IMG/VR virus record: IMGVR_UViG_3300038660_000106
Coordinates: 1 to 35,082 of that record
Length of the DNA stretch: 35,082 nucleotides
Direction: 5' to 3' (one strand)
From: a virus
Below the pieces are notes generated by a model. The model worked only from the letters and a program-made list of their open reading frames with translations. It was not told the origin of the DNA and searched no databases. This document shows positions 3,895-35,082 of the stretch, in pieces. The position numbers and the translations under genes are program-made. Positions within the stretch are counted from its first letter, which is position 1. Each line of letters begins with the position of its first letter.

Positions 3895-5775
3895 ATGGCA
3901 ATAGGCGAGAGAATTATCAGGGCAAAGCTGGATTTATCTCTAGCCCCGTCATCACTACTCAGATTTGAAACGTGGCAAGCAAACGCTACCACGTTTCAGA
4001 TCGGAGTCTTTAGCGGAACCACGGTTGAGAGTGTCAGCGATGTCCAGAGTATAAATTGCCGAGTCATGGCAGGTCGTCTCAGCGCGGTCGTTCTCGCTGA
4101 TAAAACCATCACCAGTTTTGACGACACGTTAGCATCTTCTACATGGACAGACGCATCTAAGCAACACGGGGTTTTCGACTTCACGAATGCAGAGATGAAT
4201 CTTGCGGTTGAGGGTAGCGGCTCAGAGTTCTGGATTGTTTTTACTGCTATACTTTCAAGCGGGGAAGAGAGAACCCTGCAAGCTGGCAACCTCATGATTT
4301 ATGAGGATAACAACGAGGCAGCAGACCCAGTTCCTGAGAACACAGGCACAGCTCTAACCTTAGAGCAAGGGGATGCTCGCTACATCAACGAAGAAGACGG
4401 TAACTCAGGCGACCTAATTTCCACAAATAACCTTTCAGACGTAGCAGATGCGCCCACAGCACTAACGAATCTTGGCGCAGAACCAGCGAAAGGCGCGGAT
4501 GATAATTTTGTGACAGACGCGGAAAAGGTGGTCATAGGAAACACAAGCAACACGAATACGGGTGATCAGGATTTATCAACACTCGCAAGTCAGACTGAGC
4601 TTGATGCTAAACAAAACATCCTAACAGAAGGTGCTTTCGTAGATGGTGATAAAACCAAGCTAGAAGGCATCGAAGCAGGAGCTACAGCCAACGAGCCTCT
4701 ATTGCTCGCTACCGATCCTATCAGTCTCGCAGATGCCAGTCTGACAATAACGGGCGATTTGACCAGCGACGGTTCGACGGCGGTGACGTTTCCAGTGATG
4801 GCTCAGGTTAGTTCGGGGCGTTGGCAAAATGGCGACGATTTAGCGGATGATGAATTCTTTTTTCTCAGTTACTTATCACTGACCGCAGACTGGGCATACA
4901 CAGGCTCCATCCTCGCAGGAACCGCAGTATTCACGCCATCAGGCACATCAACAGGAACACCAATACCATCACTGAACACCACCCTCGGAGAGCCAGGACA
5001 ACGCGCCATCGTGGACGATGGGACAAACCCCGTGCGTCATTTCTACAACGCCAAAATCGCGGACGGCGATGCAGATAACTGGGTGATGGTGGCAAGTCAG
5101 ACTGAGCTGGATGCTAAACAAAACATCCTAACAGAAGGTGCTTTCGTAGATGGTGATAAAACCAAGCTAGACCAACAAAGCGGCACGAATACGGGCGATC
5201 AGGATTTGTCAACACTCGCAAGTCAGACTGACGTCGATGCTAAAGTCAGTCTAACAGGAGATCAAACTATCGCAGGTGAAAAGACATTTACAGGTCAACA
5301 AGAGCTAACTGGTCAACAGGCTCTTACTGATGATTCTACGATGACTAGAGGGCTACTAGAGGCACATACTGGTAACCGTTACATTGTAGACGATACACTT
5401 CGCACTTATTATGAAACTGTCTCGACTATTGGTATTGATATATCCACTATGCTGGATGGGTCAATCACAGCGAATTTGTTGGAAGTAGAGGTTATCGGCG
5501 GGGCTGGTATACTGGGTAATACAGGTCGGTTTTGGTATAAAAAGTATTTAATACAATACCGGAGAGTCAACAGTGCGACAGCACTTGAAACCATTGAAAT
5601 GGAATCAGCTTTAGGGTCTTTCCATCAAGTTTCAACGAATATTCCTGTGATTTCTTTCACAAATAATTTTAATATTTTGAGACTAAACATCAACGATACG
5701 GCAGGAGGGGCAACGACAAGTTTCATCCACAAGATAACAATAAAGTCACTACTAATCCCACCATTAACAAATTAA
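3895..5775 (+). CDS. Tail fibre / receptor-binding or baseplate-upper protein with internal repeats
   Basis: A 626-residue protein. Residues 1-140 look like a BppU-type upper-baseplate N-terminal domain (KLDLSLAPSS...FQIGVFSG...VFDFTNAEMNL). They are followed by the fibre motif LEQGDARYI at about 160 and by repeated trimeric-fibre segments: LSTLASQTELDAKQNIL, then GAFVDGDKTKL, then a collagen-like turn GIEAGA. The C-terminal 100 residues form a distinct beta domain, probably the receptor-binding tip. The repeats are nearly identical in DNA (see 4585 and 5092), so the gene can change length by recombination. It lies between the tail tube and lysis genes. Confidence 0.7.
   Translation: MAIGERIIRAKLDLSLAPSSLLRFETWQANATTFQIGVFSGTTVESVSDVQSINCRVMAGRLSAVVLADKTITSFDDTLASSTWTDASKQHGVFDFTNAEMNLAVEGSGSEFWIVFTAILSSGEERTLQAGNLMIYEDNNEAADPVPENTGTALTLEQGDARYINEEDGNSGDLISTNNLSDVADAPTALTNLGAEPAKGADDNFVTDAEKVVIGNTSNTNTGDQDLSTLASQTELDAKQNILTEGAFVDGDKTKLEGIEAGATANEPLLLATDPISLADASLTITGDLTSDGSTAVTFPVMAQVSSGRWQNGDDLADDEFFFLSYLSLTADWAYTGSILAGTAVFTPSGTSTGTPIPSLNTTLGEPGQRAIVDDGTNPVRHFYNAKIADGDADNWVMVASQTELDAKQNILTEGAFVDGDKTKLDQQSGTNTGDQDLSTLASQTDVDAKVSLTGDQTIAGEKTFTGQQELTGQQALTDDSTMTRGLLEAHTGNRYIVDDTLRTYYETVSTIGIDISTMLDGSITANLLEVEVIGGAGILGNTGRFWYKKYLIQYRRVNSATALETIEMESALGSFHQVSTNIPVISFTNNFNILRLNINDTAGGATTSFIHKITIKSLLIPPLTN
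4585..4664 (+). repeat. 80-bp direct repeat copy 1 in fibre gene
   Basis: This 80-base segment recurs at 5092-5171 with a single mismatch (T/G at the fourth codon). It encodes the module ASQTELDAKQNILTEGAF and the VDGDKTKL that follows. A shorter related module also recurs at 5181-5242. Confidence 0.9.
5092..5171 (+). repeat. 80-bp direct repeat copy 2 in fibre gene
   Basis: 79 of 80 bases match copy 1 at 4585-4664, and both are in the same reading frame. Near-identity at synonymous positions implies recent duplication or gene conversion. Confidence 0.9.
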
Positions 5776-5781
5776 AAAATC

Positions 5782-6129
5782 ATGACATACATAAAAACAC
5801 CTACACCAGAAGAAGCACGCAAAAATAAACGTGAAAAGCAGATCCTTAAAGTCGCAGAAGCATTAAATCATACCAATGGTATTATGATAAGCGCTAATGA
5901 TGGTTTTTGGGAGGAAGACCCCGAACTACTAGTAGCAGACCTTAATGCTGACTTAGATAACTCTATTGCTTTAATGACTGCTAACGCAACCATCGGAGCA
6001 GTTAATAATGCTCATTTAGATTCTTTAAATCTACCTAAATATTCAAATCGTGCGCCCCTAGAAATCGGTAATCCTGCTATCACCCTGACTGAACAGGGGT
6101 TCGTTTACACACCGCCAGAAGATGAATAA
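5782..6129 (+). CDS. Hypothetical protein downstream of fibre gene
   Basis: A 115-residue soluble protein starting MTYIKTPTPEEARKNKREKQ. It has a basic N-terminal helix, an acidic centre (NADLDNSIALM) and a C-terminal TEQGFVYTPPEDE. The position just after a fibre gene and just before lysis genes suggests a tail-fibre assembly helper or a small tail accessory protein. I recognise no family and the role is a guess from context. Confidence 0.5.
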   Translation: MTYIKTPTPEEARKNKREKQILKVAEALNHTNGIMISANDGFWEEDPELLVADLNADLDNSIALMTANATIGAVNNAHLDSLNLPKYSNRAPLEIGNPAITLTEQGFVYTPPEDE

Positions 6130-6169
6130 ACAAGACGGAAAAGCTTCAATCCCTGCTACAAAAAACATC

Positions 6170-6550
6170 ATGAAACTAAAACTACTAATAACCACAGCAT
6201 GTATCGCAAATATATCTTGCACTAATCTAACAAAACCAGATGGCACGAATCTAAAAACATTTGGAGCAAATATAGCGATGGCAGATGGGACGACTATCAA
6301 CACGGATACTGGCTGGAAAACAGTAGGTAGCGTGGCTAAATTTGGCATTGTTGGATCAGTCGTCAAAGACGTTACCAGCACGGCAGGCGGGGTGTTTAAG
6401 TCTAAGGACAGCGAGAAAACAATCAGATCAGCGGATGGTAATGGGACTAAAGTAAAGCTAGATGACAACGCGACAGCATTAGAGCAGGCGCGTATCGAAG
6501 CTGATCTTGAGAAATTTAAAACACCACTTGAAACACCTTTACCAGAATAG
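6170..6550 (+). CDS. Putative phage lipoprotein in lysis region
   Basis: I choose the ATG at 6170 instead of 6122. From it the protein starts MKLKLLITTACIANISC, a short positively charged N-terminus, a hydrophobic stretch and a cysteine preceded by I-S, a weak lipobox. That start gives 126 residues; the longer frame would bury the signal. The mature part is Thr/Gly/Asp-rich with a charged C-terminal helix. In a block with a coiled-coil membrane protein, a holin candidate, a second lipoprotein and an amidase, it may be an outer-membrane lysis component or a surface-exclusion lipoprotein. Confidence 0.5.
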   Translation: MKLKLLITTACIANISCTNLTKPDGTNLKTFGANIAMADGTTINTDTGWKTVGSVAKFGIVGSVVKDVTSTAGGVFKSKDSEKTIRSADGNGTKVKLDDNATALEQARIEADLEKFKTPLETPLPE

Positions 6551-7392: not shown

Positions 7393-7986
7393 ATGGGTTA
7401 TGAGCTAGTAGGCAGAGTATGGAGCGCGGAAACTTTCAAGGGTTACTTTGATAAAGTAAACACTCGCTGGGCTAATAGTGTCACGCTTCATCACACGGCA
7501 TCACCTAGCCTAGCGCAACGTCCTAAAGGATTTCTAGAGCAGCACATGGAAAACTTAAAGTATTTCTATAAAGTCAAATTAGGCTGGAGTCGTGGACCAC
7601 ACCTATTTATTGATGATGATGAAATCCTCGGCTTGTCATCACTTTACCGCTCAGGGACTCACGCTAGATCATTCAACAAAAATTCAATCGGAATCGAAGT
7701 GCTAGGTAATTACGACAAAGAAGACCCTCTGAACGGTCGAGGTCTAGCTTGCTGGACTATAGCGAGCAAAGCAGTTGCGATCATCCTAGCGCGTAAAGGG
7801 TTACCAGCAAATAGCAACACAATCAAATTTCACCGCGACGACCCAAAGACAAGAAAGACATGCCCTGGGACTAAGGTTGTGAAATCTTGGTTTATTGATA
7901 TGGTCAACGCAGAGATGAGCGTAGATGAGTTGACGAATACTCAACGCATCGAGCGAATCGAATCTCACTTGAACCTCAACGGATAA
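7393..7986 (+). CDS. Endolysin: N-acetylmuramoyl-L-alanine amidase (Amidase_2/PGRP fold)
   Basis: 197 residues. The zinc ligands are visible: His33 in TLHHTAS, His147 in KFHRDD and Cys157 in TCPGTKV, as in T7 lysozyme-type amidases that cut the bond between N-acetylmuramic acid and L-alanine. The family blocks WSRGPHLFID (residues 65-74) and SIGIEVLGNY (98-107) are also present. There is no signal peptide, so export through a holin is expected. The last 30 residues are a short helical tail (TNTQRIERIESHLNLNG) that may mediate dimerisation. A terminator follows immediately. Confidence 0.93.
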   Translation: MGYELVGRVWSAETFKGYFDKVNTRWANSVTLHHTASPSLAQRPKGFLEQHMENLKYFYKVKLGWSRGPHLFIDDDEILGLSSLYRSGTHARSFNKNSIGIEVLGNYDKEDPLNGRGLACWTIASKAVAIILARKGLPANSNTIKFHRDDPKTRKTCPGTKVVKSWFIDMVNAEMSVDELTNTQRIERIESHLNLNG

Positions 7987-7987
7987 A

Positions 7988-8040
7988 CCAGCCACCATTA
8001 TCGCTCATTTTAATAAGGGGTAATGGATGGCTGGCTTTCT
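7988..8040 (+). terminator. Rho-independent terminator after lysis operon
   Basis: CCAGCCACCATTA (7988-8000) pairs with TAATGGATGGCTGG (8021-8034) with a one-base bulge, followed by CTTTCT. It closes the rightward late operon just before the oppositely oriented cassette block begins. Confidence 0.75.
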
Positions 8041-8068
8041 GTATTATCCGCTGTGAGATAAACAGGTT

Positions 8069-8075
8069 GTTCGAT
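8069..8075 (-). repeat. Terminal attC half-site (R'' only) of last cassette
   Basis: On the minus strand ATCGAAC (8075-8069), followed by AACCTG, is the R''/L'' start of an attC site and exactly complements the GTTCGAT that begins this cassette (8382-8376). No L'/R' half follows before the amidase terminator, so the array's distal end is truncated. Confidence 0.6.
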
Positions 8076-8081
8076 TAAAGA

Positions 8082-8339
8082 TTAGACCGTTAATGATCCT
8101 TCTCTACTCCAAGTGGAGATGAGTTCATTCAATTCGTCCTGTAGAGTCCTCGCACTTTCTATGTTTCTGAATTCCAGAATCAAATCAAACTGACTCTCGT
8201 CCGCTTTTTTATCCCACTCTTTTGGGGTAGAGTTTATAGGCTTGGCTTCATCGATCTTTTTGATGGTTAAGCACTTTGCACCTTCGTGTGTCGTTCCTTG
8301 TTGTGTTTGCAACTTTCCGTTGCCGTATGTTAGTTTCAT
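8082..8339 (-). CDS. Cassette-encoded hypothetical protein (last cassette)
   Basis: 85 residues, start MKLTYGNGKLQTQQG, mixed charge, with a C-terminal amphipathic helix (ESARTLQDELNELISTW). No family recognised. The ATG is preceded by the conserved leader GCTGGCGAGCTACGC (minus strand, 8365-8351). A short upstream frame reading ...RAGELRKKIL ends in a TGA that overlaps this ATG (ATGA), suggesting coupled translation. It is the terminal cassette and ends at an isolated attC half-site. Confidence 0.6.
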   Translation of the reverse strand: MKLTYGNGKLQTQQGTTHEGAKCLTIKKIDEAKPINSTPKEWDKKADESQFDLILEFRNIESARTLQDELNELISTWSREGSLTV

Positions 8340-8375
8340 AATATTTTTTTGCGTAGCTCGCCAGCACGTTTAAAA

Positions 8376-8487
8376 ATCGAACAACGCAGAGCAGCCAACC
8401 GGCTAGGGCGCATCAGTGTTGTTCGTAGTTAGTTGGTTATTGGTTCAGCCGAGTCTTGCGCCGGTGGCTGTCTTGAGGACGTTAGAT
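8376..8487 (-). repeat. attC-like site 1 (112 bp)
   Basis: Minus strand: R'' ATCTAAC (8487-8481), left arm GTCCTCAAGACAGCCACCGG, right arm CCGGTTGGCTGCTCTGCG, R' GTTCGAT (8382-8376). The arms pair imperfectly around a loop rich in ACCAATAACC. Confidence 0.8.
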
Positions 8488-8494
8488 TAAGATG

Positions 8495-8737
8495 TTATCT
8501 CGCTGGGTGCTTTCCATCTTTCCATTGGCCGATCATAGGTCGATTGCTATGTTTTATTATTCTGTGTCTCCAGCAATCACAATCCCAGCACATCTCTTCA
8601 ATGGATTGATACATACCATTAGTGCCCGTGGTGTGCCACTTGTGCTGTCGTGGGAAAAAATGCCTAACAAGCCGAAGCAGCCGACCACTAGGGCGTGATG
8701 GCTGGCAAGGTTGCTCTATGTCTATCTTTTCTTTCAT
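8495..8737 (-). CDS. Cassette-encoded Cys/Trp/His-rich mini-protein
   Basis: 80 residues from the ATG at 8737. That ATG lies inside the upstream attC-like site, so about the first 26 residues are encoded by the recombination site. An internal ATG at 8614 gives a 39-residue protein (MYQSIEEMCWDCDCWRHR...) wholly within the cassette and may be the true product. The core W-D-C-D-C-W-R-H-R suggests a metal-binding knuckle. Its 5' core (GTTAGGC) and 3' core (ATCTAAC) agree only in five of seven bases, unlike most neighbours. Confidence 0.45.
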   Translation of the reverse strand: MKEKIDIEQPCQPSRPSGRLLRLVRHFFPRQHKWHTTGTNGMYQSIEEMCWDCDCWRHRIIKHSNRPMIGQWKDGKHPAR

Positions 8738-8770
8738 ATCTATCGTGGCGGCTGTTCTAAGACGTTAGAT
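8662..8770 (-). repeat. attC-like site 2 (109 bp)
   Basis: Minus strand: R'' ATCTAAC (8770-8764), left arm AGAACAGCCGCCAC, right arm GTGGTCGGCTGCTTCGGC, R' GTTAGGC (8668-8662), a perfect GTTRRRY core. The loop carries an ATG (8737) opening into the next cassette's frame. Confidence 0.82.
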
Positions 8771-8777
8771 TAAAAAT

Positions 8778-8993
8778 TTATGCGCTAATCTTTTTCCCGC
8801 AGTTGTAGCAGTAGTTAAAATTATTCTGCTCAATACCTCCATCGTTAAACTCAAAGTAGACTCCACATGAACTCTGCCATATCCCGTCATCTTCTGTCCA
8901 TGAGCATGTCTGAGGCTCTTTTTTCTTTTTGCTAGACTCTTTCCCTAATATTGAGCTTTTGAGTTTAGTTCCTGTTTCTTGATATATGTCCAT
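8778..8993 (-). CDS. Cassette-encoded zinc-ribbon mini-protein
   Basis: 71 residues from the ATG at 8993 (MDIYQETGTKLK). The frame stays open upstream to a GTG at 9059, but that part is attC sequence plus the shared leader peptide RAGELR. The C-terminal half shows four cysteines in a C-S-W...S-S-C-G-V-Y-F-E-F...Y-C-Y-N-C-G-K-K-I arrangement. This arrangement is common in small phage and integron hypothetical proteins and is expected to bind one zinc. The 5' core GTTAGAT and 3' core ATCTAAC complement exactly. Function unknown. Confidence 0.7.
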   Translation of the reverse strand: MDIYQETGTKLKSSILGKESSKKKKEPQTCSWTEDDGIWQSSCGVYFEFNDGGIEQNNFNYCYNCGKKISA

Positions 8994-9040
8994 AATGTTT
9001 TCGCGTAGCTCGCCAGCACGTTGTTCTAAATTAAATCCAA

Positions 9041-9158
9041 ATCTAACAAGCCGCTGCACCTAACCACCATGGCGCGCTCTCGTCAGTTTTGGTTGTTTGT
9101 TATTTGTTGTGGTGGTCATCGTTGCTGAGTGGTGGCAGGTGAGCTGAGGACGTTCGTT
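9041..9158 (-). repeat. attC-like site 3 (118 bp)
   Basis: Minus strand: R'' AACGAAC (9158-9152), left arm CTCACCTGCCACCAC, right arm GTGGTTAGGTGCAGCGGC, R' GTTAGAT (9047-9041). Its left arm is identical over 26 bp (9129-9154) to site 10 (11511-11536), so the two sites are of one lineage. Confidence 0.85.
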
Positions 9159-9164
9159 TAAAAA

Positions 9165-9404
9165 TTACACCGCTTTAACTATCCCTGAATCTACTGACTC
9201 TTCAAAAGTTTTCAGAACTTCGCAACTTGAAGCTACCTTCACTAACTCAACTTCATCTCCATCACTCAGACATTTCGCCCAGAATAATCCACTGTGACGA
9301 ATCACCACTGAGTTCCATTCATTGTCATTGTGATCAGATTCTATTCTGATGCAGTCACCTTCCTTTATCTCTCTTCCCGTATGGTCTTCTATTTGTGTAT
9401 TCAT
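9165..9404 (-). CDS. Cassette-encoded small beta-protein (YopX-like pattern)
   Basis: 79 residues from the ATG at 9404 (MNTQIEDHTGREIKEGD). A longer frame starts at 9503 inside the attC-like site and would add 33 residues, including the attC-encoded RCCALF. The pattern 'D-x-x-G-R-E-I-x-E-G-D-x-I-R-I...V-V-I-R-H-S-G-L-F-W' resembles small YopX/DUF-type beta proteins of phages. A 24-bp imperfect palindrome (9418-9441) lies just upstream. Its 5' and 3' cores (GTTCGTT, AACGAAC) complement exactly. Confidence 0.6.
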   Translation of the reverse strand: MNTQIEDHTGREIKEGDCIRIESDHNDNEWNSVVIRHSGLFWAKCLSDGDEVELVKVASSCEVLKTFEESVDSGIVKAV

Positions 9405-9417
9405 TTCACCAAAAGTC

Positions 9418-9441
9418 CTCAGCCAATTCAATGACTGAGGT
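9418..9441 (-). promoter_or_regulatory. Palindrome upstream of cassette gene
   Basis: CCTCAG and CTGAGG arms enclose CCAATTCAATGA; the centre is also partly symmetric. It lies 14 bases upstream of the ATG at 9404, so it may act on translation or as a repressor site. Confidence 0.4.
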
Positions 9442-9449
9442 AAATCCAA

Positions 9450-9576
9450 AACGAACAACGCGCAGCACCTAACGCCTACGGCGTGGGAGCTGCGGAGCTT
9501 CATTTTTAGTTAGTATATTATCAGGTTTATTCATGGTTTCTCTCCCCTAGGGGTTGGCTATGCTTGGACGTTCGTT
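9450..9576 (-). repeat. attC-like site 4 (127 bp)
   Basis: Minus strand: R'' AACGAAC (9576-9570), left arm GTCCAAGCATAGCC, right arm GGCGTTAGGTGCTGCGCG, R' GTTCGTT (9456-9450). The loop contains two ATGs (9534 and 9503); the latter is in frame with the next cassette's gene. Confidence 0.78.
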
Positions 9577-9894
9577 TAACACATCATAGAGCATAGAGCA
9601 TAGCACCGCACCCGCCTCTTCTGATATTCTAAAAGATAATAAACTTTCTTTTCCGCCATCTAGTGGTTTATATATTTTTACAAATATGCCTTTTTCATCA
9701 CTATCCTTAACTGGCACTCCTACAGATATTTTACGCCCATCTGGGAATATTTTTGTAGTTGTATCGGTCATCACCTTATCATCACTCTCTAGAGCTAAAG
9801 TGTGGTAAGGGATCGAACAAATCGCATTAGCCGACTCAGACGGCGGCTTTTCGGTTAAGTTTTCGCTTTCTGGCGTATCGTTATTTTCACTCAT
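9547..9894 (-). CDS. Cassette-encoded hypothetical protein spanning two attC sites
   Basis: 115 residues from the ATG at 9894. Residues 1 to about 27 (MSENNDTPESENLTEKPPSE...) are encoded by attC-like site 5. The last dozen (NERPSIANP) are encoded by the R''/L'' part of site 4. An internal ATG at 9771 (MTDTTTKIFPDGRK) would start within the cassette. The core is a beta-rich domain (KISVGVPVKDSDEKGIFVKIYKP) followed by a helix. No family recognised. The N-terminal S-E-S-A-N-x-x-C is shared with the neighbouring cassette gene at 9945. Confidence 0.6.
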   Translation of the reverse strand: MSENNDTPESENLTEKPPSESANAICSIPYHTLALESDDKVMTDTTTKIFPDGRKISVGVPVKDSDEKGIFVKIYKPLDGGKESLLSFRISEEAGAVLCSMLYDVLNERPSIANP

Positions 9895-9950
9895 AATTTT
9901 ATTTAATGGTTATTCTATGCCGTCTAATCGGCTATGCTACTACGTTATGC
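9812..9950 (-). repeat. attC-like site 5 (139 bp)
   Basis: Minus strand: R'' GCATAAC (9950-9944), left arm GCATAGCCGATTAGACGGC, right arm GCCGTCTGAGTCGGCTAATG, R' GTTCGAT (9818-9812). The arms pair over about 18 bases with bulges. The 50-base loop holds the ATG at 9894. Confidence 0.83.
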
Positions 9951-10229
9951 TAAAATATCCACCTTCATCCTCTTCATCCATTCATCGCTACAATATCCAT
10001 TACTCAATGGATGATCTGCACCCCTAGCGTAAATCATGAGTAACGCTTCTTTTTGAGTTAGCATCACCGCCTCATCACCTGTGTATTCACAGGCTGAGTT
10101 TAAGCAATATTCCCCGTCGTATAAGCCCCAAAAGCAATTAGGGCAACGCCTACTAGCATAACAACGCGTATTAGCCGACTCAGACGGCGCGTTTTCCGTG
10201 GAGATTTCTTTAGGTTTTTCAGTATTCAT
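9945..10229 (-). CDS. Cassette-encoded zinc-ribbon protein with attC-encoded start
   Basis: 94 residues. The only ATG upstream of the zinc-ribbon is at 10229, inside attC-like site 6, so the first ~22 residues (MNTEKPKEISTENAPSESAN) come from the recombination site. Then RRCPNCFWGLYDGEYC-x4-C forms a Cys-rich ribbon, followed by a helical C-terminus (EALLMIYARG). The TAA stop lies within the R'' core. The 5' core GTTATGC and 3' core GCATAAC are exact complements. Function unknown; nucleic-acid or protein binding is typical of such ribbons. Confidence 0.65.
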   Translation of the reverse strand: MNTEKPKEISTENAPSESANTRCYASRRCPNCFWGLYDGEYCLNSACEYTGDEAVMLTQKEALLMIYARGADHPLSNGYCSDEWMKRMKVDILA

Positions 10230-10270
10230 AAGTTATTCAATGCTTAAGGTGTGAGACGGCTATGCTAAGC
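10156..10270 (-). repeat. attC-like site 6 (about 115 bp, degenerate R'')
   Basis: Minus strand: left side AGCATAGCCGTCTCAC, right arm CGCCGTCTGAGTCGGCTAA, R' GTTATGC (10162-10156). The R'' side reads GCTTAGC instead of an NNNNAAC core, so the site may be weakened. The right arm matches site 5. Confidence 0.7.
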
Positions 10271-10441
10271 ATACCAGAATCTTACTCTTTCTTTAGCGTT
10301 CTCAAAAGACTGAGCTATTTCAGCATCTCCAGTGGATTTCAAATACTCAAGTAATATCTCATCAGCTCTTGCGTGTAGAATCTCTTGATCTCCTTTAGAA
10401 TCCATAGATTCCAACTCTTTTATCGCTTCTTTTTTATTCAT
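10265..10441 (-). CDS. Small conserved phage/integron protein (58 aa)
   Basis: Starts ATG at 10441 and ends TAG at 10267-10265: MNKKEAIKELESMDSKGD, then EILHARADEILLEYLKSTGDAEIAQSFENA and a C-terminal FWYA. Highly helical. The pattern H-x-x-A-D-x-I-L-L-x-x-L...A-x-x-x-W-Y-A is one I recognise from many tiny uncharacterised proteins in phages and cassette arrays. Its ATG overlaps the TGA of the upstream gene (ATGA). The 5' side lacks a recognisable R' core, so it may have entered by another route or lost half an attC. Confidence 0.75.
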   Translation of the reverse strand: MNKKEAIKELESMDSKGDQEILHARADEILLEYLKSTGDAEIAQSFENAKERVRFWYA

Positions 10442-10833
10442 AATTTTTCGTTGTTATTCGTGCGGCTATGCTTAGCGTTCGACAGAGAATGAAGAGCGTC
10501 GTCCTGGACATAGCGCTCAGTTTGGCCGGTGAAGGTCATCCCGGCCTCGTCTAGCAGACCGCAATAACCCTCCATGATTCCCGCCACACTTCCCGATTCT
10601 TCTTCCTTCAGGTTGTATCCCTTCAGCATTTCCCGAGCTGCATTCATTGGAACGGCGAGCCACGGATCATCTTCCATGTGCGGGGCGTGATGAGTCTGAA
10701 TGTCGGCGGCTTTTAACGCGGTAAGGCGCGGCGAGTCCAGCGCGACCGAATCCAAGTCGAACAAGGCATCGCAGCCAATGCCTACCGCGTTGGAGTCGGT
10801 GGCGAGGGCGGAGCTATTTGGCGCGGTAGTCAT
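10438..10833 (-). CDS. GC-rich cassette-encoded hypothetical protein with attC-encoded ends
   Basis: 131 residues. The ATG at 10833 is in attC-like site 8, so residues 1 to about 26 (MTTAPNSSALATDSNAVGIG...) are encoded by the site. The last 14 (NAKHSRTNNNEKL) run through the half-site at 10477-10441. Without the attC start the first ATG would be at MEDDPWLAVPM. The body has two helices (MNAAREMLKGYN, VAGIMEGYCGLLDEAG) and ends LDEAGMTFTGQTERY. The DNA is clearly more GC-rich than neighbouring cassettes, suggesting a different source. Cores GTTCGAC and GTCGAAC complement exactly. Confidence 0.6.
   Translation of the reverse strand: MTTAPNSSALATDSNAVGIGCDALFDLDSVALDSPRLTALKAADIQTHHAPHMEDDPWLAVPMNAAREMLKGYNLKEEESGSVAGIMEGYCGLLDEAGMTFTGQTERYVQDDALHSLSNAKHSRTNNNEKL
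10441..10483 (-). repeat. attC-like half-site 7 (R'' and L'' only)
   Basis: Minus strand: R'' GTCGAAC (10483-10477) then GCTAAGCATAGCCGCAC, but no L'/R' partner follows before the next gene's ATG. The segment CTWAGCATAGCCG is shared with site 6, consistent with a deletion or recombination between arms. Confidence 0.6.
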
Positions 10834-10854
10834 GGCTGGATTTGGACGTTCGCC
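10756..10854 (-). repeat. attC-like site 8 (99 bp)
   Basis: Minus strand: R'' GGCGAAC (10854-10848), left arm CCAGCCATGACTACCGCG, right arm CGCGGTAGGCATTGGCTG, R' GTTCGAC (10762-10756). The arms pair almost perfectly (CTACCGCG with CGCGGTAG; CAGCC with GGCTG). The next gene's ATG (10833) is in the left arm. Confidence 0.87.
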
Positions 10855-11096
10855 TAAAAGTTAGACCCTATTTCGTTTCTCAAAAACTCGCTAGCTTTTT
10901 TTACTACACTAGCATCAAAGAAAAACTCGACCTTGTCTAATATTTCGCTCCATTTGCATTCTTGCGTATTGCTGACAAACGCGGCATGACTTAGTAATCG
11001 GGCGCATAATCTTTCTTGACTTGATAAAGGCGAAAAACACGCAGTTGCTGGATCATCTACGGCTAAGGTCGGTTCAGTGTTTTTAGTTTCATTCAT
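10854..11096 (-). CDS. Cassette-encoded hypothetical protein whose only ATG is in the upstream attC
   Basis: 80 residues from the ATG at 11096 in the loop of attC-like site 9. No other ATG exists anywhere in the frame, so if this gene is translated from ATG it must begin in the recombination site of the preceding cassette. The attC part encodes MNETKNTEPTLAVDDPATAC. The cassette part is helical (SSQERLCARLLSHAAF, then SEILDKVEFFFDASVVKKASEFLRNEIG). The stop TAG overlaps the R'' core. No family recognised. The 3' core GGCGAAC matches the 5' sequence except for a T-run insertion there. Confidence 0.55.
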   Translation of the reverse strand: MNETKNTEPTLAVDDPATACFSPLSSQERLCARLLSHAAFVSNTQECKWSEILDKVEFFFDASVVKKASEFLRNEIGSNF

Positions 11097-11160
11097 AATA
11101 TTTTTTTAGTTTTTAAGTTTAATGAGCTGCCCGATGACAGCAATGCTAAGGACGTTCTGC
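11029..11160 (-). repeat. attC-like site 9 (about 130 bp)
   Basis: Minus strand: R'' GCAGAAC (11160-11154), left arm GCATTGCTGTCATCGGGC, right arm GATGATCCAGCAACTGCG, R' GTTTTTCGCC (11038-11029), which looks like GTTCGCC with three extra Ts. The loop carries the ATG at 11096. Confidence 0.75.
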
Positions 11161-11166
11161 TAAAAA

Positions 11167-11373
11167 TTAATAATCTCCCCCCATCACTGCTCGCAGGTTA
11201 GTATTTAATCCATCCCTTAACTGTTTCGCTTGCAAAACAGTTAAACCTAATACCCCAACGTCTCCAATTACAATGTTGATAACATGATTAACTTCACTTC
11301 CGTAACTAGGCTTGCCTACTTGGGTATAAATAGATTCTTGACCATTCTCTTTTAAATTTATTCTCGTTTTCAT
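11167..11373 (-). CDS. Cassette-encoded hypothetical protein
   Basis: 68 residues from the ATG at 11373 (MKTRINLKENGQESIYTQ). Upstream of it the frame is open through the shared leader (LAGELRDKL) and the attC to a GTG at 11445. Beta-rich, with a central hydrophobic stretch (HVINIVIGDVGVLGLTVLQAKQLRDGL) that ends in a helix. No family recognised. The 5' core GTTCTGC and 3' core GCAGAAC are exact complements, so it is a textbook cassette. Confidence 0.62.
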   Translation of the reverse strand: MKTRINLKENGQESIYTQVGKPSYGSEVNHVINIVIGDVGVLGLTVLQAKQLRDGLNTNLRAVMGGDY

Positions 11374-11415
11374 AAGTTTGTCGCGTAGCTCGCCAGCTAA
11401 ATAGTTAATAAAAAT

Positions 11416-11540
11416 GCAGAACAACGCGCTGCACCTAACCACCACGGCTGAGGTCGGCGAAGCTTGTCGTATATTGTTATGTTATTGGTTTATTCACGTC
11501 TTCTGATGTTGTGGTGGCAGGTGAGCTGAGGACGTTATGT
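11416..11540 (-). repeat. attC-like site 10 (125 bp)
   Basis: Minus strand: R'' ACATAAC (11540-11534), left arm CTCACCTGCCACCAC, right arm GTGGTTAGGTGCAGCGCG, R' GTTCTGC (11422-11416). Nearly the same as site 3 in both arms but with a different loop. Confidence 0.85.
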
Positions 11541-11875
11541 TAAAGAGTCCGATAGTTCTGAGCCGCCGTGATTACGGTGGAGCTACCGCGCTGTTCGGTC
11601 GTCAATTCGACAGGGTATAGTTCCATGATTGGCTTTCCGTCCAGAGTCAGTGTTTCTTTCGGAGCGTTACGCAATCGAACTATTCCGAGCCGTCCCTTTA
11701 ATTCAGCGATATTCCATCCATCACCTATTGATGAGGTGATAGCCTCGGCTATGGACTTGTCTGTCTTTTCAGCCATCCCCTGTGCCAAAGATTCATAACA
11801 AGCCGCAATAGTCAACCGCCTTGGGCTGGCTTCCACGGAGTTTTCTGGAGGTAAGTTTTCTATTGGTGTTTTCAT
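11540..11875 (-). CDS. Cassette-encoded hypothetical protein with attC-encoded start
   Basis: 111 residues from the ATG at 11875 in attC-like site 11; residues 1-26 are site-encoded (MKTPIENLPPENSVEASPRR...). The alternative ATG gives MAEKTDKSIAEAI within the cassette. The body has a helix (KSIAEAITSSI), a GDGWNIAELKGRLGIVRLRN segment and a beta-rich C-terminus (LTLDGKPIMELYPVEL). No family recognised. The 3' core ACATAAC matches the 5' core GTTATGA in six of seven bases. Confidence 0.6.
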   Translation of the reverse strand: MKTPIENLPPENSVEASPRRLTIAACYESLAQGMAEKTDKSIAEAITSSIGDGWNIAELKGRLGIVRLRNAPKETLTLDGKPIMELYPVELTTEQRGSSTVITAAQNYRTL

Positions 11876-11915
11876 ATCTTTTCTTGGTCGGCGGCTATGC
11901 TACGGCGATATACTA
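11793..11915 (-). repeat. attC-like site 11 (about 120 bp, degenerate R'')
   Basis: Minus strand: left side CGCCGTAGCATAGCCGCC, right arm AGGCGGTTGACTATTGCGGC, R' GTTATGA (11799-11793). The R'' side is not a clear NNNNAAC. The loop carries the ATG at 11875. Confidence 0.7.
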
Positions 11916-12035
11916 GAAGAGCTTCTTCTTGCTTCTACTCCTTTCATTCGGGCGATATATACCATTAGCAGGTATTATTACTTTTTTCCAGCCGTAGCTT
12001 CTATTCTTTTTTCTTTCTTCCTCTGTTTCGTTCAT
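11913..12035 (-). CDS. Short basic cassette-encoded protein (first in array)
   Basis: 40 residues, MNETEEERKKNRSYGWKK then VIIPANGIYRPNERSRSKKKLF. Very basic, with no cysteines. It is the promoter-proximal gene of the minus-strand block, 33 bases after the predicted transcription start region. Coding status is supported by position and the AGATATG start context seen in other cassette genes; function unknown. Confidence 0.5.
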   Translation of the reverse strand: MNETEEERKKNRSYGWKKVIIPANGIYRPNERSRSKKKLF

Positions 12036-12074
12036 ATCTGTTTTAATAATTGGTTAGTTGCTTGGTATAAAAAA

Positions 12075-12103
12075 CAAATACCTAATGTATCCTATTTTGT
12101 CAA
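12075..12103 (-). promoter_or_regulatory. Candidate promoter for the cassette array
   Basis: On the minus strand TTGACA (12103-12098, perfect -35) is followed after 17 bases by TATTTG (12080-12075, poor -10). It lies in the AT-rich divergent gap upstream of the first cassette gene, where an integron Pc-like promoter would be expected. Confidence 0.45.
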
Positions 12104-12164
12104 ATTTAAAATAAATAAAAATAATATTTGCCATAAATAATTAAATGTGTAACTTGGTGACGAA

Positions 12165-28176: not shown

Positions 28177-30366
28177 ATGGCAATAACGATCAACGGTCAG
28201 ATCCCGTCCTATTATGGGGTCACAGTAGCAGGATGGAGCGAGGGGACTTTAACCTCTTCCATCCTAACGCTTGACGCGGTGGTGTCTGATTACGCTACAA
28301 CATCCTTAGAATATGGAGATACCGTCACTTTGTTAGATGGTTCCACACAATTATTCACTGGTATAGTCACGATGATACCTACTGAGGGGTCAGGAGGTAG
28401 CCACAACCAATCCTATGAGGTGAGTGACGGCTGGGCATGTCTTGAGCAGATCGTCATGCAGACAGAAAGAGTCTATCCGATCCCGGACGGCGAGGGCGGA
28501 ACCACTCAAGAAACTAAGCTATTCTCAGTCGTATCTTACGAGAAAGATCAGAGCATGGGAGAGCGCATCACCGATGTATTGAACTATGCGATCAGCAAGG
28601 GAGCGAACTTACAGATTGGAACTATCGCAGCGGGTATTGATTGGTGGAGATCAGAATACAAGAACCAGGCATGTTCTGAGGTTCTGAGGGACATCATGAG
28701 GACTATGCCGGACTATCAGCTCTACGTTGATGTGAGAACTAGCCCGGCAACTATCTCCATGAAGCTGAGAAGCGATCTTGATCCTAAGACGGTCAACCTC
28801 ACAGGAGGCAAAGCAGTAAGCCACTCTCACACTGATTTAAATGATCAAATAGCCTCATCTGTCATCTTGCGTTATGAGTTCCAAAACACCGTTGATGATG
28901 AGACTTTCCTGACCGTGGTGGAAGATAGCGCGGGTGGTAACGATGGAGCAAAAGGAACGGTAATTGAAAGCATTGAAATGGCTGGCAGTTCTGCGAATTA
29001 CGAATACTCACCAGTAACCGCTGAAGAGATACCGGATGAAATGGCATCTGAGGCGGAAAAGGTGACATGGTGGGTGAATCATACGCCAGCACTCAAGTTG
29101 ATTGCCGATGAATACGGGATTGATTTTGTGGTCCCTCTTCTGGATATTGCCAACTTCGACAACATCCCAGAGGACATCCACAAGCATAAACTATTCCTCC
29201 AAGGCGAACCAGAACGCCCGGAGCCGATCAACCCGAATGCAACACCAATCACACCAAGCGAGGAACTGACAGACTACCCTAATGAACTAATTGAGGGCGG
29301 TGTAACTGAATGGATGCGTAAGAAATACAGGATGGTAAATGCGGTCGCGTCTCTAGCAATCAAGGATGTTACGAATGATAATATTTCCGATGTCGTATCG
29401 GCGTTATACGGAATCATGAAGCGTAAACAGACATGGGCAGGCGATGATTTGCGTATCTGTAAAGTAGAGGGCGCGGTCATGGCTACCAATGCAAGAACCA
29501 AGAATTACAGACGTTTAGTATCATCAACGCCAGCGGAGGAAATGCCAGTAGGTCTAGCAGCTCAGATCCTAGCGCAATTCTCACAACTCAGGCGCAGAGG
29601 GTCAATCACTCTAAAAGATCAAGGTATTGATAATCAGTATCGAATCGGGCAGAGTCTTAACTTATCGAACGGTAAAACAGCGTGGGCAAGCATGGATGAG
29701 AGTATCGTCGGGGTGAGTCATGATCTAGCATCAGGAAACACAACGATTGAGTATGGACCTACTGAAACCATGGGGGCGCAAGACTTTATAGAACGGCTCA
29801 GAGCATCACGTAGGAACGTTTATGTGATTCTGGGTGGTAGCGGTTCATCTGCGGAGGCTAACGCATCAGGCGGGACGGTAGCTACACCTAGCAGTAGATT
29901 TACACTGACTTCAGAAGCAGGGACAGATAAACCATTCCTTCTCACTGCTAGACGGACAGAAGCGGGTGTTTATAAATACAAAGTGAGCAATGAAACATCA
30001 TCTGTAGTGGACGGGACGGCCAGCGTGATTGATATTTCAGAGGCAGGATTTAACGAGGAAAAGGACATCACAGGTATTAAATACATCGTTCTTGAATTTT
30101 CTTACACCGATAGAGATGCAGAAGGCAATGGTGCTGGGGTCAGGTCAGGGCCAGAGATACTAGACGTAGATAAAGCTGACTCCGTAGAGATTGATTATCA
30201 CGCCAGCGGATTACAAAGCAAAGCTAGATTGATCATCGGGAAAGTAGAAACTACAGGCGGCAACGTGGTAGCGACTCAGCACGCAGAGACATGCCAGATG
30301 CTTCATGACATGTTCGATAGCGGACAACTCGTAAAAGGATTCACCAGCTACCCCTTCACGGACTAA
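28177..30366 (+). CDS. Tail hub / baseplate protein
   Basis: 729 residues. The first 250 look like the beta-rich, phage-D/gp27-like hub fold (VTVAGWSEGTLTSSILTLDA, LLDGSTQLFTGIVTMIP). A helix-rich region follows at 100-190 (SVVSYEKDQSMGERITDVLN, SEVLRDIMRTMPDYQLYV), typical of tail-tip 'DUF' hubs. A C-terminal part of about 150 residues carries a separate beta domain. It should bind the tape-measure end of the tube. The name is by position and fold-like features, so moderate confidence. Confidence 0.6.
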   Translation: MAITINGQIPSYYGVTVAGWSEGTLTSSILTLDAVVSDYATTSLEYGDTVTLLDGSTQLFTGIVTMIPTEGSGGSHNQSYEVSDGWACLEQIVMQTERVYPIPDGEGGTTQETKLFSVVSYEKDQSMGERITDVLNYAISKGANLQIGTIAAGIDWWRSEYKNQACSEVLRDIMRTMPDYQLYVDVRTSPATISMKLRSDLDPKTVNLTGGKAVSHSHTDLNDQIASSVILRYEFQNTVDDETFLTVVEDSAGGNDGAKGTVIESIEMAGSSANYEYSPVTAEEIPDEMASEAEKVTWWVNHTPALKLIADEYGIDFVVPLLDIANFDNIPEDIHKHKLFLQGEPERPEPINPNATPITPSEELTDYPNELIEGGVTEWMRKKYRMVNAVASLAIKDVTNDNISDVVSALYGIMKRKQTWAGDDLRICKVEGAVMATNARTKNYRRLVSSTPAEEMPVGLAAQILAQFSQLRRRGSITLKDQGIDNQYRIGQSLNLSNGKTAWASMDESIVGVSHDLASGNTTIEYGPTETMGAQDFIERLRASRRNVYVILGGSGSSAEANASGGTVATPSSRFTLTSEAGTDKPFLLTARRTEAGVYKYKVSNETSSVVDGTASVIDISEAGFNEEKDITGIKYIVLEFSYTDRDAEGNGAGVRSGPEILDVDKADSVEIDYHASGLQSKARLIIGKVETTGGNVVATQHAETCQMLHDMFDSGQLVKGFTSYPFTD

Positions 30367-31364
30367 TGGGAGAACAAATCACATTCAGACCTAGAGGAAG
30401 AGGATGCGCGGTGCAATTATGGGATGGAGCTGTGAGCATTACTGAGCCAAGGGTGAAGTTTCTCAAAGGCTGGCTGACTGGCGGCACTGACCCAGCAGAC
30501 GGGAGTGTTGAATGTGGAGACGGCACAGCGTATCCGTTAGAGGTGACGTTGGATCAACTGTCAGATATATTTTACCGGGTAAAGGATAGCTGGTTCACGG
30601 CTGGATCTTTGTCGATAACAGTTGGGTTGGTGGATACAGGCTTACCGACAACCACCGCTATAGCAGGCACTCCACCACCGCAGAAGTTTTCCTATTTCAC
30701 TTCATCATTTGCAGACTATGGATACAGTCGCAGAGGTTACAGTTTAGAGGCTGACCCATTCTTCGATTTGATAGACTTGCCAGATTTAGAGTATTATTCC
30801 ACCCCATACGCAGTAGACAGCGGCTTGAATGCTTACGATATGGATAACGTATACGGAATGTGGTCAAGCTTTGGAGGATCTACAGCAGGACATGGATCGT
30901 TGTTTTATTATAACTCCGAACCTCTTTTCCCACTGTATAATAGGAGCGCTTTTGAACACGCGATATTAACGAATACCGATGATGCTGCTGACATTGAAGG
31001 CAACTACGGACTACAGCCCACCAACACTTATGGAGGGTATGAAACACTAGACCTTATTTTCAGCGGTAAAGTAACATGGGTAGGTGCTGATAACCCATTT
31101 GACCCAGCTGCCACGCTTTACGTTGGATTGGATTTCTATGTTAGGGGATCTGGTGGTGATGCATTTTCAAACGCCACTGGAAAATCAGACGCTTCCGCTG
31201 TTCTAAAGCTTGAGTTGACTGCCACGGATTTCGTTTCATGTCCGTTATATACGTTAAATTCAGACACGGTGACAGATTTCGTCATCACCGCGCGGGAATG
31301 GTGGGAATATGATGACGGCAAAGGAAACCCAATTTACAAATCAACCACAGGAAAACGAATTTAA
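30366..31364 (+). CDS. Tail-tip structural protein, unknown
   Basis: 332 residues, MGEQITFRPRGRGCAVQLWD. Tyr/Gly/Ser-rich, beta-type (FSYFTSSFADYGYSRRGYSL, GMWSSFGGSTAGHGSLFYYN). Its ATG overlaps the hub gene stop (TAATG), implying stoichiometric coupling. No family recognised; composition suggests an exposed tail-tip or adhesin protein. Confidence 0.6.
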   Translation: MGEQITFRPRGRGCAVQLWDGAVSITEPRVKFLKGWLTGGTDPADGSVECGDGTAYPLEVTLDQLSDIFYRVKDSWFTAGSLSITVGLVDTGLPTTTAIAGTPPPQKFSYFTSSFADYGYSRRGYSLEADPFFDLIDLPDLEYYSTPYAVDSGLNAYDMDNVYGMWSSFGGSTAGHGSLFYYNSEPLFPLYNRSAFEHAILTNTDDAADIEGNYGLQPTNTYGGYETLDLIFSGKVTWVGADNPFDPAATLYVGLDFYVRGSGGDAFSNATGKSDASAVLKLELTATDFVSCPLYTLNSDTVTDFVITAREWWEYDDGKGNPIYKSTTGKRI

Positions 31365-32506: not shown

Positions 32507-35082
32507 ATGAATCACTATCATCAAACCAAGTCAGTTAAATCACAAAAGATTGACGAACCTATTGTTCAAAATAAAGCGCAAGACAGGCTTTTAGAATTAT
32601 TCAATCGTGAAGAGCTACCTGGAACCGTGAGAGAGAATCTTGCAGGAGCATTATCTGGTAACCTAGCGAGACAGCAGCTCATGTTTCAAGCGATGATAGA
32701 TACTACCCCTAGACTTCAGAAGAATCTAGCAGAGGTAGCGGATGCTGTGAAGGGTGCAAAATGGCAGTTCACGGCTAAGAAGATGAGGGGTGAGGAAGAG
32801 CCAAGCAAGGAAGCTATCGAGCGTATGGAGTTCATCGAGGACGCTTTCAAGGACACATCACCAAGCGTTGTTAGGAATGAGAAGAACCACAAGCAAGTTG
32901 TGCGTGATTTAGTCTATGGATACTATATGGGTCATCACGTAACTGAGATTCATTGGCAAAATAGAGATGGGATATATAATCCCCGGGCATACAAGTCAGT
33001 CCCTCCTAGATTCTACGGATACCCGTTCTTTGATGAAGATGATGACAGGCTCATGTTTGATCCAAGCGGTAGAGAGTCACAAGAATACATTGACTTTCCA
33101 GAAGATCGTTTCTTGATAGCGATGAACTCAGGACACACTGGACACATGGCGACATCTGCACCATTACGTGCGCTCACAGGTTATTGGCTGGCTTCTAACT
33201 TTGGATTGAAATGGCTCATGTCATTCTCTCAACTCTATGGAGTGCCTTTCCGCTGGGGAACTTACTCAGATGAATTGGGAAAGAAAGCACTCAGCACAAT
33301 GCTACAGAACATCGGCTCAACTGGCTGGGCATCTGTCCCGAAAGGAACTGATATTGAGTTTAAGGATGCGGCAAAAGGTGTAGGTTCACTACCACAGCAG
33401 GGGCTTATTGATATGGCTAATGAGGCTTTCGATATTTTCATCCTAGGGCAGACTCTCACATCATCACAAGGTGACACAGGCTCACAGGCTCTAGGCAATG
33501 TTCATAACGAGGTAAGGCAAGGTGTATTCCAAAAAGTGGGTGACTACGTGGGTGATATACTCAACACGCAGCTGATACCGTCTATCTCTAAGCTGAACTA
33601 TGGAGACGTTGAAAACCTCCCTACTATCGAGCCAGTATTTGAGAAAAAGGAAGATCCTAAGCTACTAGCTGAGAGAGATGCTATGCTCATCAGCATGGGA
33701 ATGGAAGTTGATAAGGATTGGCTCTATGATCGTCATGGCGTTCCAATTCCTAAAGATGAGAAGAATATATTTAAACCAGCTTCTACTCCGGATGGTGGTC
33801 AGGGAGATCCTGACACGGGGGGCGGCAAGCCTCCTATAGAAACAAAGGAGAAAGAGGGTGAAAAAAAAGATGAGGTAAAGGGGGCGTTCAACCCTAACCA
33901 ATCTAGGGACGAAAACGGGATGTGGACGGATGGGGGTGAGGTTCATGAGAAGATCCAAAGGACGAGGGATTTAATCGCACACGGGAGAACAGAAGAGTCA
34001 ATAATATCTGATTTAAAGTTAGCTTCTGAGGGTGATATTCCCATACCTAAAGACCTCGATGACAAAATAGACGTGCTGGCTTATGGTTATGCAGATGGGG
34101 AAATGATCACCACAGCAACAGAGAATATTGACATATTTTGGACAGAAGACTTGGTTAACCCGCAACACTTATTTGACACACAAGGCATGGATTGGGTAAA
34201 CTCAGTTGACTTCACTGATCCTGTAGAGTTAGGCGTTGATGAGGTCGGCAAACTATACATTGAAGATGGTCATCATAGATGGTTCGCATCTGGAAAACTA
34301 GGAAGAGAAGTGACGGGGCAGATAGTTAAATTCAAAGGGAATCCACTCGTTAAGATAATAAAAGACGGAGTAGCTAACAGAGCGAAACCTGATTATAAAA
34401 TAGAAGGCGCATTCAACCCTAACCAAGACAGGGACGAGAACGGGATGTGGACGGATGGGGGCTTAAATGATACCGAGAAGAAAGCCACGTCAATAATGAG
34501 GGAAAGCTACAGAAAAGCCAAAGCCCTCTATGATATGCCTATAAATGAGCGTATAAAACAAGCTATTGATACAGCTAAATCAGGAGGTTACGCTGGACTA
34601 TCTAAGGTAGATAAATACGCAGTTTCTCCAATGAAAAACGTAAGAGACAGGGATAATCTGCAAGAGGAATTTGCAGAGCGATTTAAGAAGCATTTAGAAA
34701 AACATGAATCAGAGCCATTATACAATGAGGAAGAGTTTTTAAATAAACTCAGGAAATTTCAAACTATACAAAGCGCGTTTAACCCTATGCAACTTCGTGA
34801 TGAGGCTGGAATGTGGACTATGGGCGGCGGTGATGGAGGGGGATCGACTAGCATCCCAACTGATCCGACATTAAAGAAGGATTTAGAATACATGAAAGCA
34901 GTTGAGTCTGGTGACGTGGATGCGCAACAAAGGATGGTTGATGAAGCGGCTAAGAATGCGGGGTATGATTCGCCTAAGGTTTATCATGGAACAGATGCGC
35001 GATTCACTGTTTACGATAAAGATAAAACAGGTTCTAACTTTGGATTAGATAAGCATGGGTTTTTCTTTACTACAGATAAAGA
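32507..35082 (+). CDS. DUF935/Mu gp29-type portal fused to ParB-like, unknown and ART-like domains (3' end outside window)
   Basis: 858 codons with no stop in the window. Residues 1-430 are a DUF935 portal: NLARQQLMFQAMIDTTPRLQ, LVYGYYMGHHVTEIHW, FILGQTLTSSQGDTGSQALG with EVRQGVF. At 459, 634 and 756 a 19-residue motif starts with (G/S)AFNPxQxxRDExGMWT. Between copies 1 and 2 is a ParB/Srx-like domain (IEDGHHRWFASGKLG). Between 2 and 3 is an unknown helical domain. After 3 comes an ADP-ribosyltransferase-like start (PKVYHGTDARFTVYDKDK, then G-F-F-F). Such domains are listed for phage polyvalent proteins. The fusion to a portal is what stands out. Confidence 0.88.
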   Translation, partial: MNHYHQTKSVKSQKIDEPIVQNKAQDRLLELFNREELPGTVRENLAGALSGNLARQQLMFQAMIDTTPRLQKNLAEVADAVKGAKWQFTAKKMRGEEEPSKEAIERMEFIEDAFKDTSPSVVRNEKNHKQVVRDLVYGYYMGHHVTEIHWQNRDGIYNPRAYKSVPPRFYGYPFFDEDDDRLMFDPSGRESQEYIDFPEDRFLIAMNSGHTGHMATSAPLRALTGYWLASNFGLKWLMSFSQLYGVPFRWGTYSDELGKKALSTMLQNIGSTGWASVPKGTDIEFKDAAKGVGSLPQQGLIDMANEAFDIFILGQTLTSSQGDTGSQALGNVHNEVRQGVFQKVGDYVGDILNTQLIPSISKLNYGDVENLPTIEPVFEKKEDPKLLAERDAMLISMGMEVDKDWLYDRHGVPIPKDEKNIFKPASTPDGGQGDPDTGGGKPPIETKEKEGEKKDEVKGAFNPNQSRDENGMWTDGGEVHEKIQRTRDLIAHGRTEESIISDLKLASEGDIPIPKDLDDKIDVLAYGYADGEMITTATENIDIFWTEDLVNPQHLFDTQGMDWVNSVDFTDPVELGVDEVGKLYIEDGHHRWFASGKLGREVTGQIVKFKGNPLVKIIKDGVANRAKPDYKIEGAFNPNQDRDENGMWTDGGLNDTEKKATSIMRESYRKAKALYDMPINERIKQAIDTAKSGGYAGLSKVDKYAVSPMKNVRDRDNLQEEFAERFKKHLEKHESEPLYNEEEFLNKLRKFQTIQSAFNPMQLRDEAGMWTMGGGDGGGSTSIPTDPTLKKDLEYMKAVESGDVDAQQRMVDEAAKNAGYDSPKVYHGTDARFTVYDKDKTGSNFGLDKHGFFFTTDK
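33881..33937 (+). repeat. Linker/processing motif copy 1 (codons 459-477)
   Basis: GAFNPNQSRDENGMWTDGG. About 50 of 57 bases match copy 2, so the repeat is recent at DNA level. It separates the portal from the ParB-like domain. Confidence 0.88.
34406..34462 (+). repeat. Linker/processing motif copy 2 (codons 634-652)
   Basis: GAFNPNQDRDENGMWTDGG. It separates the ParB-like domain from a 100-residue helical domain of unknown type. Confidence 0.88.
34772..34828 (+). repeat. Linker/processing motif copy 3 (codons 756-774)
   Basis: SAFNPMQLRDEAGMWTMGG, diverged in DNA and sequence but keeping F-N-P, R-D-E, G-M-W-T and G-G. It separates the helical domain from the ART-like domain. Confidence 0.85.

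Follow-up and report, generated by a model that had tools for sequence, protein, structure and literature searches.

Clusters of attC sites lacking an integrase (CALINs) were described in phages, virulent phages included, by Qi et al. in 2023 (PMC9892861); Tetrasphaera phage TJE1, with three attC sites, is an example. In that work, IntI1 recombined five of the six phage attC sites tested, and methyltransferases were reported among the cargo of phage cassettes (PMC9892861). Here we analyze a 35,082-bp stretch of phage DNA (the window), which is the whole of IMG/VR record IMGVR_UViG_3300038660_000106, and describe an array at positions 8069-11913 in which about eleven small minus-strand genes alternate with attC sites. 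The array is a member of this known kind. An earlier sequence-only reading of the same DNA had noted some eleven minus-strand genes alternating with palindromes of 99-139 bp, and genes and palindromes do lie where it placed them. It located the array correctly, but extended it to 12070, beyond the end of the array proper, and it considered a sizeable cassette array in a phage to be rare; the CALIN is real, but phage CALINs had already been described.

Like the published phage CALINs, this locus combines attC cassettes in a phage with the absence of an integrase and with methyltransferase cargo, the last in a sister phage. It differs from TJE1, in which genes are normally oriented at the two clearest sites, by having at least ten attC sites, by occurring at the same place in two different phages, by its inverted genes, and by start codons inside attC. 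Class 1 integron cassettes such as aadA1 of R100 have the same R''-L''-L'-R' site organization and G/TT cores, but their genes are sense to attC. ORF-11 in attI1 aids translation of cassettes that have poor start signals (PMC8876359), so the help in class 1 integrons comes from attI1 and not from a start within attC. The sedentary chromosomal integrons of Verrucomicrobiales (Persicirhabdus, Luteolibacter, Haloferula, and Akkermansiaceae metagenome-assembled genomes, or MAGs) share with the phage array the attC boxes AACAAGNCG ... GACGTT, site lengths mostly of about 90-127 bp, and cassette-end pairing. They differ in that 83 of 92 scorable cassettes are normally oriented, in that their attC loops have a conserved interior that was not seen in the phage, and in that intI is present. 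The window sites are most similar to attC sites from Akkermansiaceae. The explanation that we favor, and that we regard as probable with its mechanism included, is that the region is a CALIN of Akkermansiaceae-type cassettes in a tailed phage of that host group.

The array contains 10 complete attC sites (99-139 bp), 1 half site (10459-10483), and 1 bare core (8069-8075). Candidate sites were evaluated with two covariance models, whose E-values are rough: R1, derived from 22 attC sites of Verrucomicrobiales genomes and including no window site, and R2, which includes six window sites. From left to right, with the plus strand as the canonical top strand, the predicted sites are as follows.

8069..8075, plus strand: left boundary core GTTCGAT, a cassette start in canonical orientation whose partner is the core at 8376-8382
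8376..8487, plus strand: attC11 (R1 E 1.2e-6)
8662..8770, plus strand: attC10 (R1 E 2.8e-7)
9041..9158, plus strand: attC9 (R1 E 3.7e-5)
9450..9576, plus strand: attC8 (R1 E 3.2e-7)
9812..9950, plus strand: attC7, with the strongest stem (R2 E 1.8e-5)
10156..10273, plus strand: attC6, arm sequence in common with attC7, outer box degenerate, missed by R1 and R2
10459..10483, plus strand: attC5, a half site judged from sequence, with the L' arm and core GTTCGAC only
10756..10854, plus strand: attC4 (R1 E 1e-10)
11029..11160, plus strand: attC3 (R2 E 0.05; cassette-end pairing)
11416..11540, plus strand: attC2 (R1 E 2.3e-4)
11793..11913, plus strand: attC1, terminal, outer box degenerate (R1 E 0.048, R2 E 0.002)

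R1 matches attC4, 10, 8, 11, 9, and 2 (E 1e-10 to 2.3e-4) and also attC1 (0.05). All of its matches in the window lie on one strand and within the array, and none lie outside. With R2, attC7 is recovered as well, and attC3 weakly so. When 31 other viral loci (525 kb) were scanned, the two models had matches in L021 and L024 only, both discussed below. The attC architecture that the sequence-only reading had proposed, together with its suggestion that an attC covariance model be applied, is thus borne out by an independent model of our own: it recognizes 6 of the 10 complete sites, which have R''-L''-L'-R' organization, at E<=2.3e-4.

A second line of evidence comes from the cassette ends. An integron cassette begins and ends with complementary 7-mers (GTTRRRY at the start), because the two are adjacent in the circular form; in an array they are split between different attC sites. 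Within the cassettes of the window, 36 of 40 variable bases are complementary, and 7 of 10 pairs are perfect. In 200,000 permutations, the mean was 18.5 and the maximum 35 (p<5e-6). Complementarity between the two boxes of a single attC site is clearly poorer than between the two ends of one cassette. Ordinary hairpin repeats would show the opposite, which bears on the alternative offered by the sequence-only reading, namely that these are phage-specific repeats that resemble attC, such as regulatory hairpins or terminators between small genes. The sites are indeed hairpins between genes, with folding energies that are not exceptional. However, a model made from bacterial attC sites recognizes them, the pairing tracks the cassette and not the hairpin, and a second phage has such an array too. 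Unless the pairing is coincidental, the look-alike explanation is refuted, and we consider it extremely improbable. A scan for attC based on structure only was discarded as not specific, with many chance matches. Given this and the ordinary folding energies, the assignment rests on sequence, structure, and cassette ends together, by which these are almost certainly true attC cassettes.

Because cassette-end pairing is symmetric, the top strand of attC had to be fixed from integrons that have an integrase. In the R100 control, the aadA1 attC reads RYYYAACAA...GCGTTRRRY away from intI1. Near complete intI genes in host genomes, the strand matched by the model is opposite to the one that reads away from intI in 21 of 22 loci (the exception is L149). 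In the window it is the minus strand that the model matches; the canonical top strand of the sites is hence plus, and all window genes are antisense to their attC sites. A typical cassette gene reads toward its own attC, which lies at its 3' end; those of the window are the reverse. The sequence-only reading was right that the genes are on the minus strand, but it missed that the canonical attC strand is the opposite one and that the cassettes therefore carry inverted genes.

Inversion was found in 18 of 20 cassettes of two phages (that of the window and the sister phage described below) versus 9 of 92 host cassettes with one clear main open reading frame (ORF), the other 83 being normal (p = 2.6e-12). 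These host cassettes were scored automatically by their longest ORF, and their loci were partly collected by attC pattern and are not a random sample. Near-duplicate attC sites within an array are not independent, so that p values for inversion and for reading frame (below) are indicative. Two of the nine inverted host cassettes look from their sequence like insertion sequence transposases, and five lie in one array, L117. We conclude that the phage cassette genes are very probably inverted relative to their attC sites.

The inverted arrangement places attC in front of the gene. The main ORF starts in the attC loop and leaves the site by way of the attC arm in 14 of the 18 inverted phage cassettes. 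Where a site has a long open path, the frame of the attC ATG is that of the gene in 14 of 16 cases, with 6.7 expected (p = 2e-4, pooled); swapping of attC sites among genes without this restriction gave p=0.05 and 0.09. A first test of starts in attC, among ORFs of one orientation, gave a Fisher p=1.0, because host ORFs nearly all lie in the other orientation. The window attC sites without such a start are attC2, 9, and 11, and these precede exactly the three genes that have their own ATG and the leader GCTGGCGAGCTACGC. In the sister phage, methyltransferase domains begin at the core without a methionine of their own (QRL followed by VRHLDLFSGIGGF; LV followed by VPLRVLVACESSG), and in the former protein position 2 of Pfam DNA_methylase is at residue 24.

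Our initial interpretation of these starts was a relay: cassettes of normal orientation on the minus strand, in which each gene is translated from a start in the attC of the preceding cassette, across the recombination point. ORFs that begin in attC loops and continue across the core to reach the gene would fit such a relay, as would the near-identical attC sites of L103 that precede different genes. We abandoned this interpretation once attC orientation had been fixed from the intI loci. Since the opposite strand is the one on which attC sites lead away from intI in those host loci, an attC and the gene that follows form one cassette; start and gene are then inherited together, as the agreement of their frames would lead one to expect, and a relay across the recombination point is unnecessary. 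We now consider the relay quite unlikely.

A second array of this kind occurs in a very different phage. Contig 3300049893_001295 (L024/L106/L107) encodes an endolysin 49% and a DnaB 32% identical to those of the window phage, and its other structural genes differ. It breaks off about 1 kb beyond the endolysin, within an array whose attC sites lie on the opposite strand. A further contig of that metagenome, 3300049893_001484 (L103), starts with exonuclease and RecT-like genes and then enters an attC array. The two arrays overlap by 132 bases that are identical save for the last few, and the contigs most likely belong to one genome. This sister phage would thus have at least ten attC sites between endolysin and exonuclease/RecT-like genes, the same place as in the window. 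Inspected by eye, six of its cassettes in L103 have perfectly paired ends (GTTCTCC/GGAGAAC, GTTGTGC/GCACAAC, GTTGTGG/CCACAAC, GTTCGGT/ACCGAAC, GTTCGAC/GTCGAAC, and GTTGAGT/ACTCAAC). Three sister cassettes encode DNA methyltransferases, and none of the window cassette genes was seen in the sister array. A stretch, CATAACAATATACGAC, near an attC loop is common to window attC2 (11416-11540) and L103 at about 4950.

The sister bears on two further explanations. Metagenomic contigs can be chimeric and arrays often break assemblies, so that the window might join a phage to a host array artificially. Yet phage genes lie on both sides of the array within one contig, the independent sister has phage-array junctions on both sides (over two contigs), and the gene orientation is unlike that of host arrays; a chimera is thus very improbable. 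Alternatively, a piece of a host chromosomal integron might have been caught once by illegitimate recombination and now be a fixed block without cassette movement. The record has no IntI, attC1, attC5, and attC6 are degenerate or halved, and a near-identical sister, L119, is uninformative, all of which would suit such a fossil. Nonetheless, perfect pairing of cassette ends persists in 7 of 10 cases, the inversion of every window gene sets the array apart from a random host piece, and a different phage carries other cassettes at the same place. We therefore regard a fossil as unlikely, although less so than the relay or a chimera.

Other phages provided fewer sites. L021, with an endolysin 50% identical, has three sites and inverted cassettes, and L136 (terminase 45% identical) has an inverted cassette at about 6040-6454 with ends GTTAGCC/GGCTAAC. 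Three attC pattern scans of viral contigs returned none, seven, and only L103, respectively; of the seven, just the sister contigs L102/L103 and L100, which has a single site, are matched by the attC models. L100 comes from a third phage, with a head protein 40% identical, and its one attC (4412-4527) lies beside head genes with a normally oriented gene.

Sites of this type also occur in bacterial genomes. The right arm of attC, scanned against 84,980 species genomes, was found at 35 places, many in Verrucomicrobiota. Persicirhabdus sediminis and Luteolibacter pohnpeiensis stand out, with matches on several contigs in both species; others lie in Haloferula luteola and Akkermansiaceae MAGs. Contigs L071 and L072, assigned to Methylobacillus and Microbacteriaceae MAGs, carry Akkermansiaceae-type attC arrays and are probably misbinned. 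A search for intI, also suggested by the sequence-only reading, found none in the phage contig; of 195 genomes taken from the family that contains Persicirhabdus, 58 have a full integron integrase above the curated cut-off. As the record is without intI, any recombination would presumably depend on a host enzyme. In L117 (7114-13249), a host chromosomal array, five inverted cassettes lie among many normal ones, and the three examined are phage-type DNA methyltransferases; these are a possible trace of cassette exchange between phage and host.

In the mechanism that we propose, each cassette would consist of one gene and one attC, with the gene inverted and its 5' end next to the attC of the same cassette; most genes would have their start codon in the attC loop, and the attC arm would be translated as a leader. 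Integron integrases are established to recombine the bottom strand of attC, inserting and excising cassettes at G/TT. The host IntI may act in trans on the folded attC bottom strand of single-stranded phage DNA, cutting at G/TT, so that cassettes would be inserted, excised, and swapped between infecting phages and host chromosomal arrays. Such action in trans by the host IntI appears likely. The phage would transcribe the array leftward from an AT-rich gap at 12.04-12.16 kb toward a late-operon terminator at about 7.98-8.04 kb. Within a host array, the usual promoter would read such inverted genes in antisense, which would keep them quiet. DNA methyltransferases are a usual counter-restriction tool, and the cargo may be accessory phage genes that serve, at least in part, in counter-defense, as the methyltransferases of the sister phage suggest; we give this role about an even chance.

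Direct support exists for the identity of the attC sites, for the pairing of cassette ends, for where the array lies, for the inversion of its genes in comparison with host arrays, and for the occurrence of another array, with other cassettes, at the corresponding place in a second phage. The sequence-only reading had viewed the phage as a carrier and shuffler of cassettes; it carries them, and the very different phage has others at the same position, whereas the shuffling is something we infer. Several results weigh against the explanation. The absence of an integrase, correctly noted in the sequence-only reading, extends to the whole 35-kb record, from which about 3.4 kb of the genome is missing. 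The attC orientation of the phage sites was transferred by homology from host arrays. The comparison of sister phages that had been suggested yielded the different phage, but no near-identical phage with a differing array was found, since the closest contig, L119, stops before the array, and turnover in the lineage was not directly observed. Most window cassette proteins have no family match, so that counter-defense cargo is seen in the sister only. Two cassette proteins that were compared have no relative in 244 host-family genomes, and array DNA compared with 260 host-family genomes gave short matches, mostly at attC, and no cassette bodies. Finally, no minus-strand promoter in the gap at 12036..12160 passed a promoter scan, which showed no enrichment.

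The open-access literature searched contained no report of a class of inverted cassettes that carry their starts in attC, of the concentration of such cassettes in these phages, or of a position common to the two arrays. The origin of cassettes has long been an unsolved problem of integron biology, and a class with a partly translated attC at the 5' end, concentrated in phages, is a lead that phage genes may gain attC sites by a different route. If the explanation is true, phages are a moving reservoir that trades counter-defense genes with host integrons by means of the host recombinase. Phage CALINs now extend to Verrucomicrobiota, the phylum of Akkermansia. More tentatively, phages of this phylum might keep a dedicated cassette bay at a constant position beside the endolysin, with a distinct class of cassette whose 5' attC supplies the start codon. 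A borrowed host IntI would shuffle counter-defense cassettes among phages and host arrays, where they would be silent as antisense. Such a bay would mirror the bacterial integron on the side of the phage and would provide another way in which cassettes arise, a possibility that we rate as rather doubtful.

The predicted genes of the array are the following.

8082..8339, minus strand: cassette gene, own ATG behind leader GCTGGCGAGCTACGC
8495..8737, minus strand: cassette gene, start within attC10
8778..8993, minus strand: cassette gene, own ATG and leader, matches phage family phrog_10312 (E 3e-11)
9165..9404, minus strand: cassette gene, open frame reaching 9503, inside attC8
9547..9894, minus strand: cassette gene, start within attC7
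9945..10229, minus strand: cassette gene, start within attC6
10265..10441, minus strand: cassette gene adjoining half site attC5
10438..10833, minus strand: cassette gene, start within attC4
10854..11096, minus strand: cassette gene, start within attC3
11167..11373, minus strand: cassette gene, own ATG and leader
11540..11875, minus strand: cassette gene, open from an ATG within attC1, with an alternative ATG near 11776
11913..12035, minus strand: judged from sequence, first small ORF of the leftward unit, without its own attC

The leader is a 15-mer, GCTGGCGAGCTACGC, identical at 8351-8365, 9003-9017, and 11383-11397 (minus strand) and followed by an A-rich stretch and the ATG. It is possibly a promoter, operator, or translation signal. 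Seven matches elsewhere in IMG/VR lie in coding sequence and were attributed to chance. A PADLOC search of the cassette proteins gave weak matches only.

Tailed-phage genes in the record include a Mu-type portal, a head protein, an endolysin, an Erf annealing protein, a YqaJ exonuclease, and a DnaB helicase. The array lies between lysis and replication modules, as the sequence-only reading had stated. On its right, recombination and replication genes begin on the plus strand at about 12.35 kb, with the Erf annealing protein and exonuclease from 13177. Other features at its edges are as follows.

7393-7986, plus strand: endolysin, left flank of the array
7982..8042, plus strand: imperfect palindrome across the endolysin end, a probable late-operon terminator at the left array edge
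12036..12160, minus strand: AT-rich gap, probable site of a leftward promoter for the array, with a TTGACA box seen by eye

Scans of the record for tRNAs and against Rfam gave no match, nor did array DNA match named phages. Among named phages, the terminase and head protein are closest to those of Akkermansia phages Chambord, DTMo-2021a, and Chantilly (33-38% identity), and the host is probably an Akkermansia-like bacterium of the Verrucomicrobiota. The nearest relative of the window phage is L119/L133, which is 97-100% identical over most genes and ends at window position 6280, 1.8 kb short of the array. This relative links both window ends with about 3.4 kb extra, and hence the window record is incomplete and was opened at an arbitrary point. 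The gene at 30366-31364 is just 37% identical to its L119/L133 counterpart, with neighbors mostly 97-100% identical, and appears to be a swapped module, perhaps for receptor binding. The Mu-type portal at 32507-35080 has a long C-terminal extension with a repeated GAFNPNQ.RDENGMWTDGG motif and an end that resembles a toxin-like enzymatic domain.

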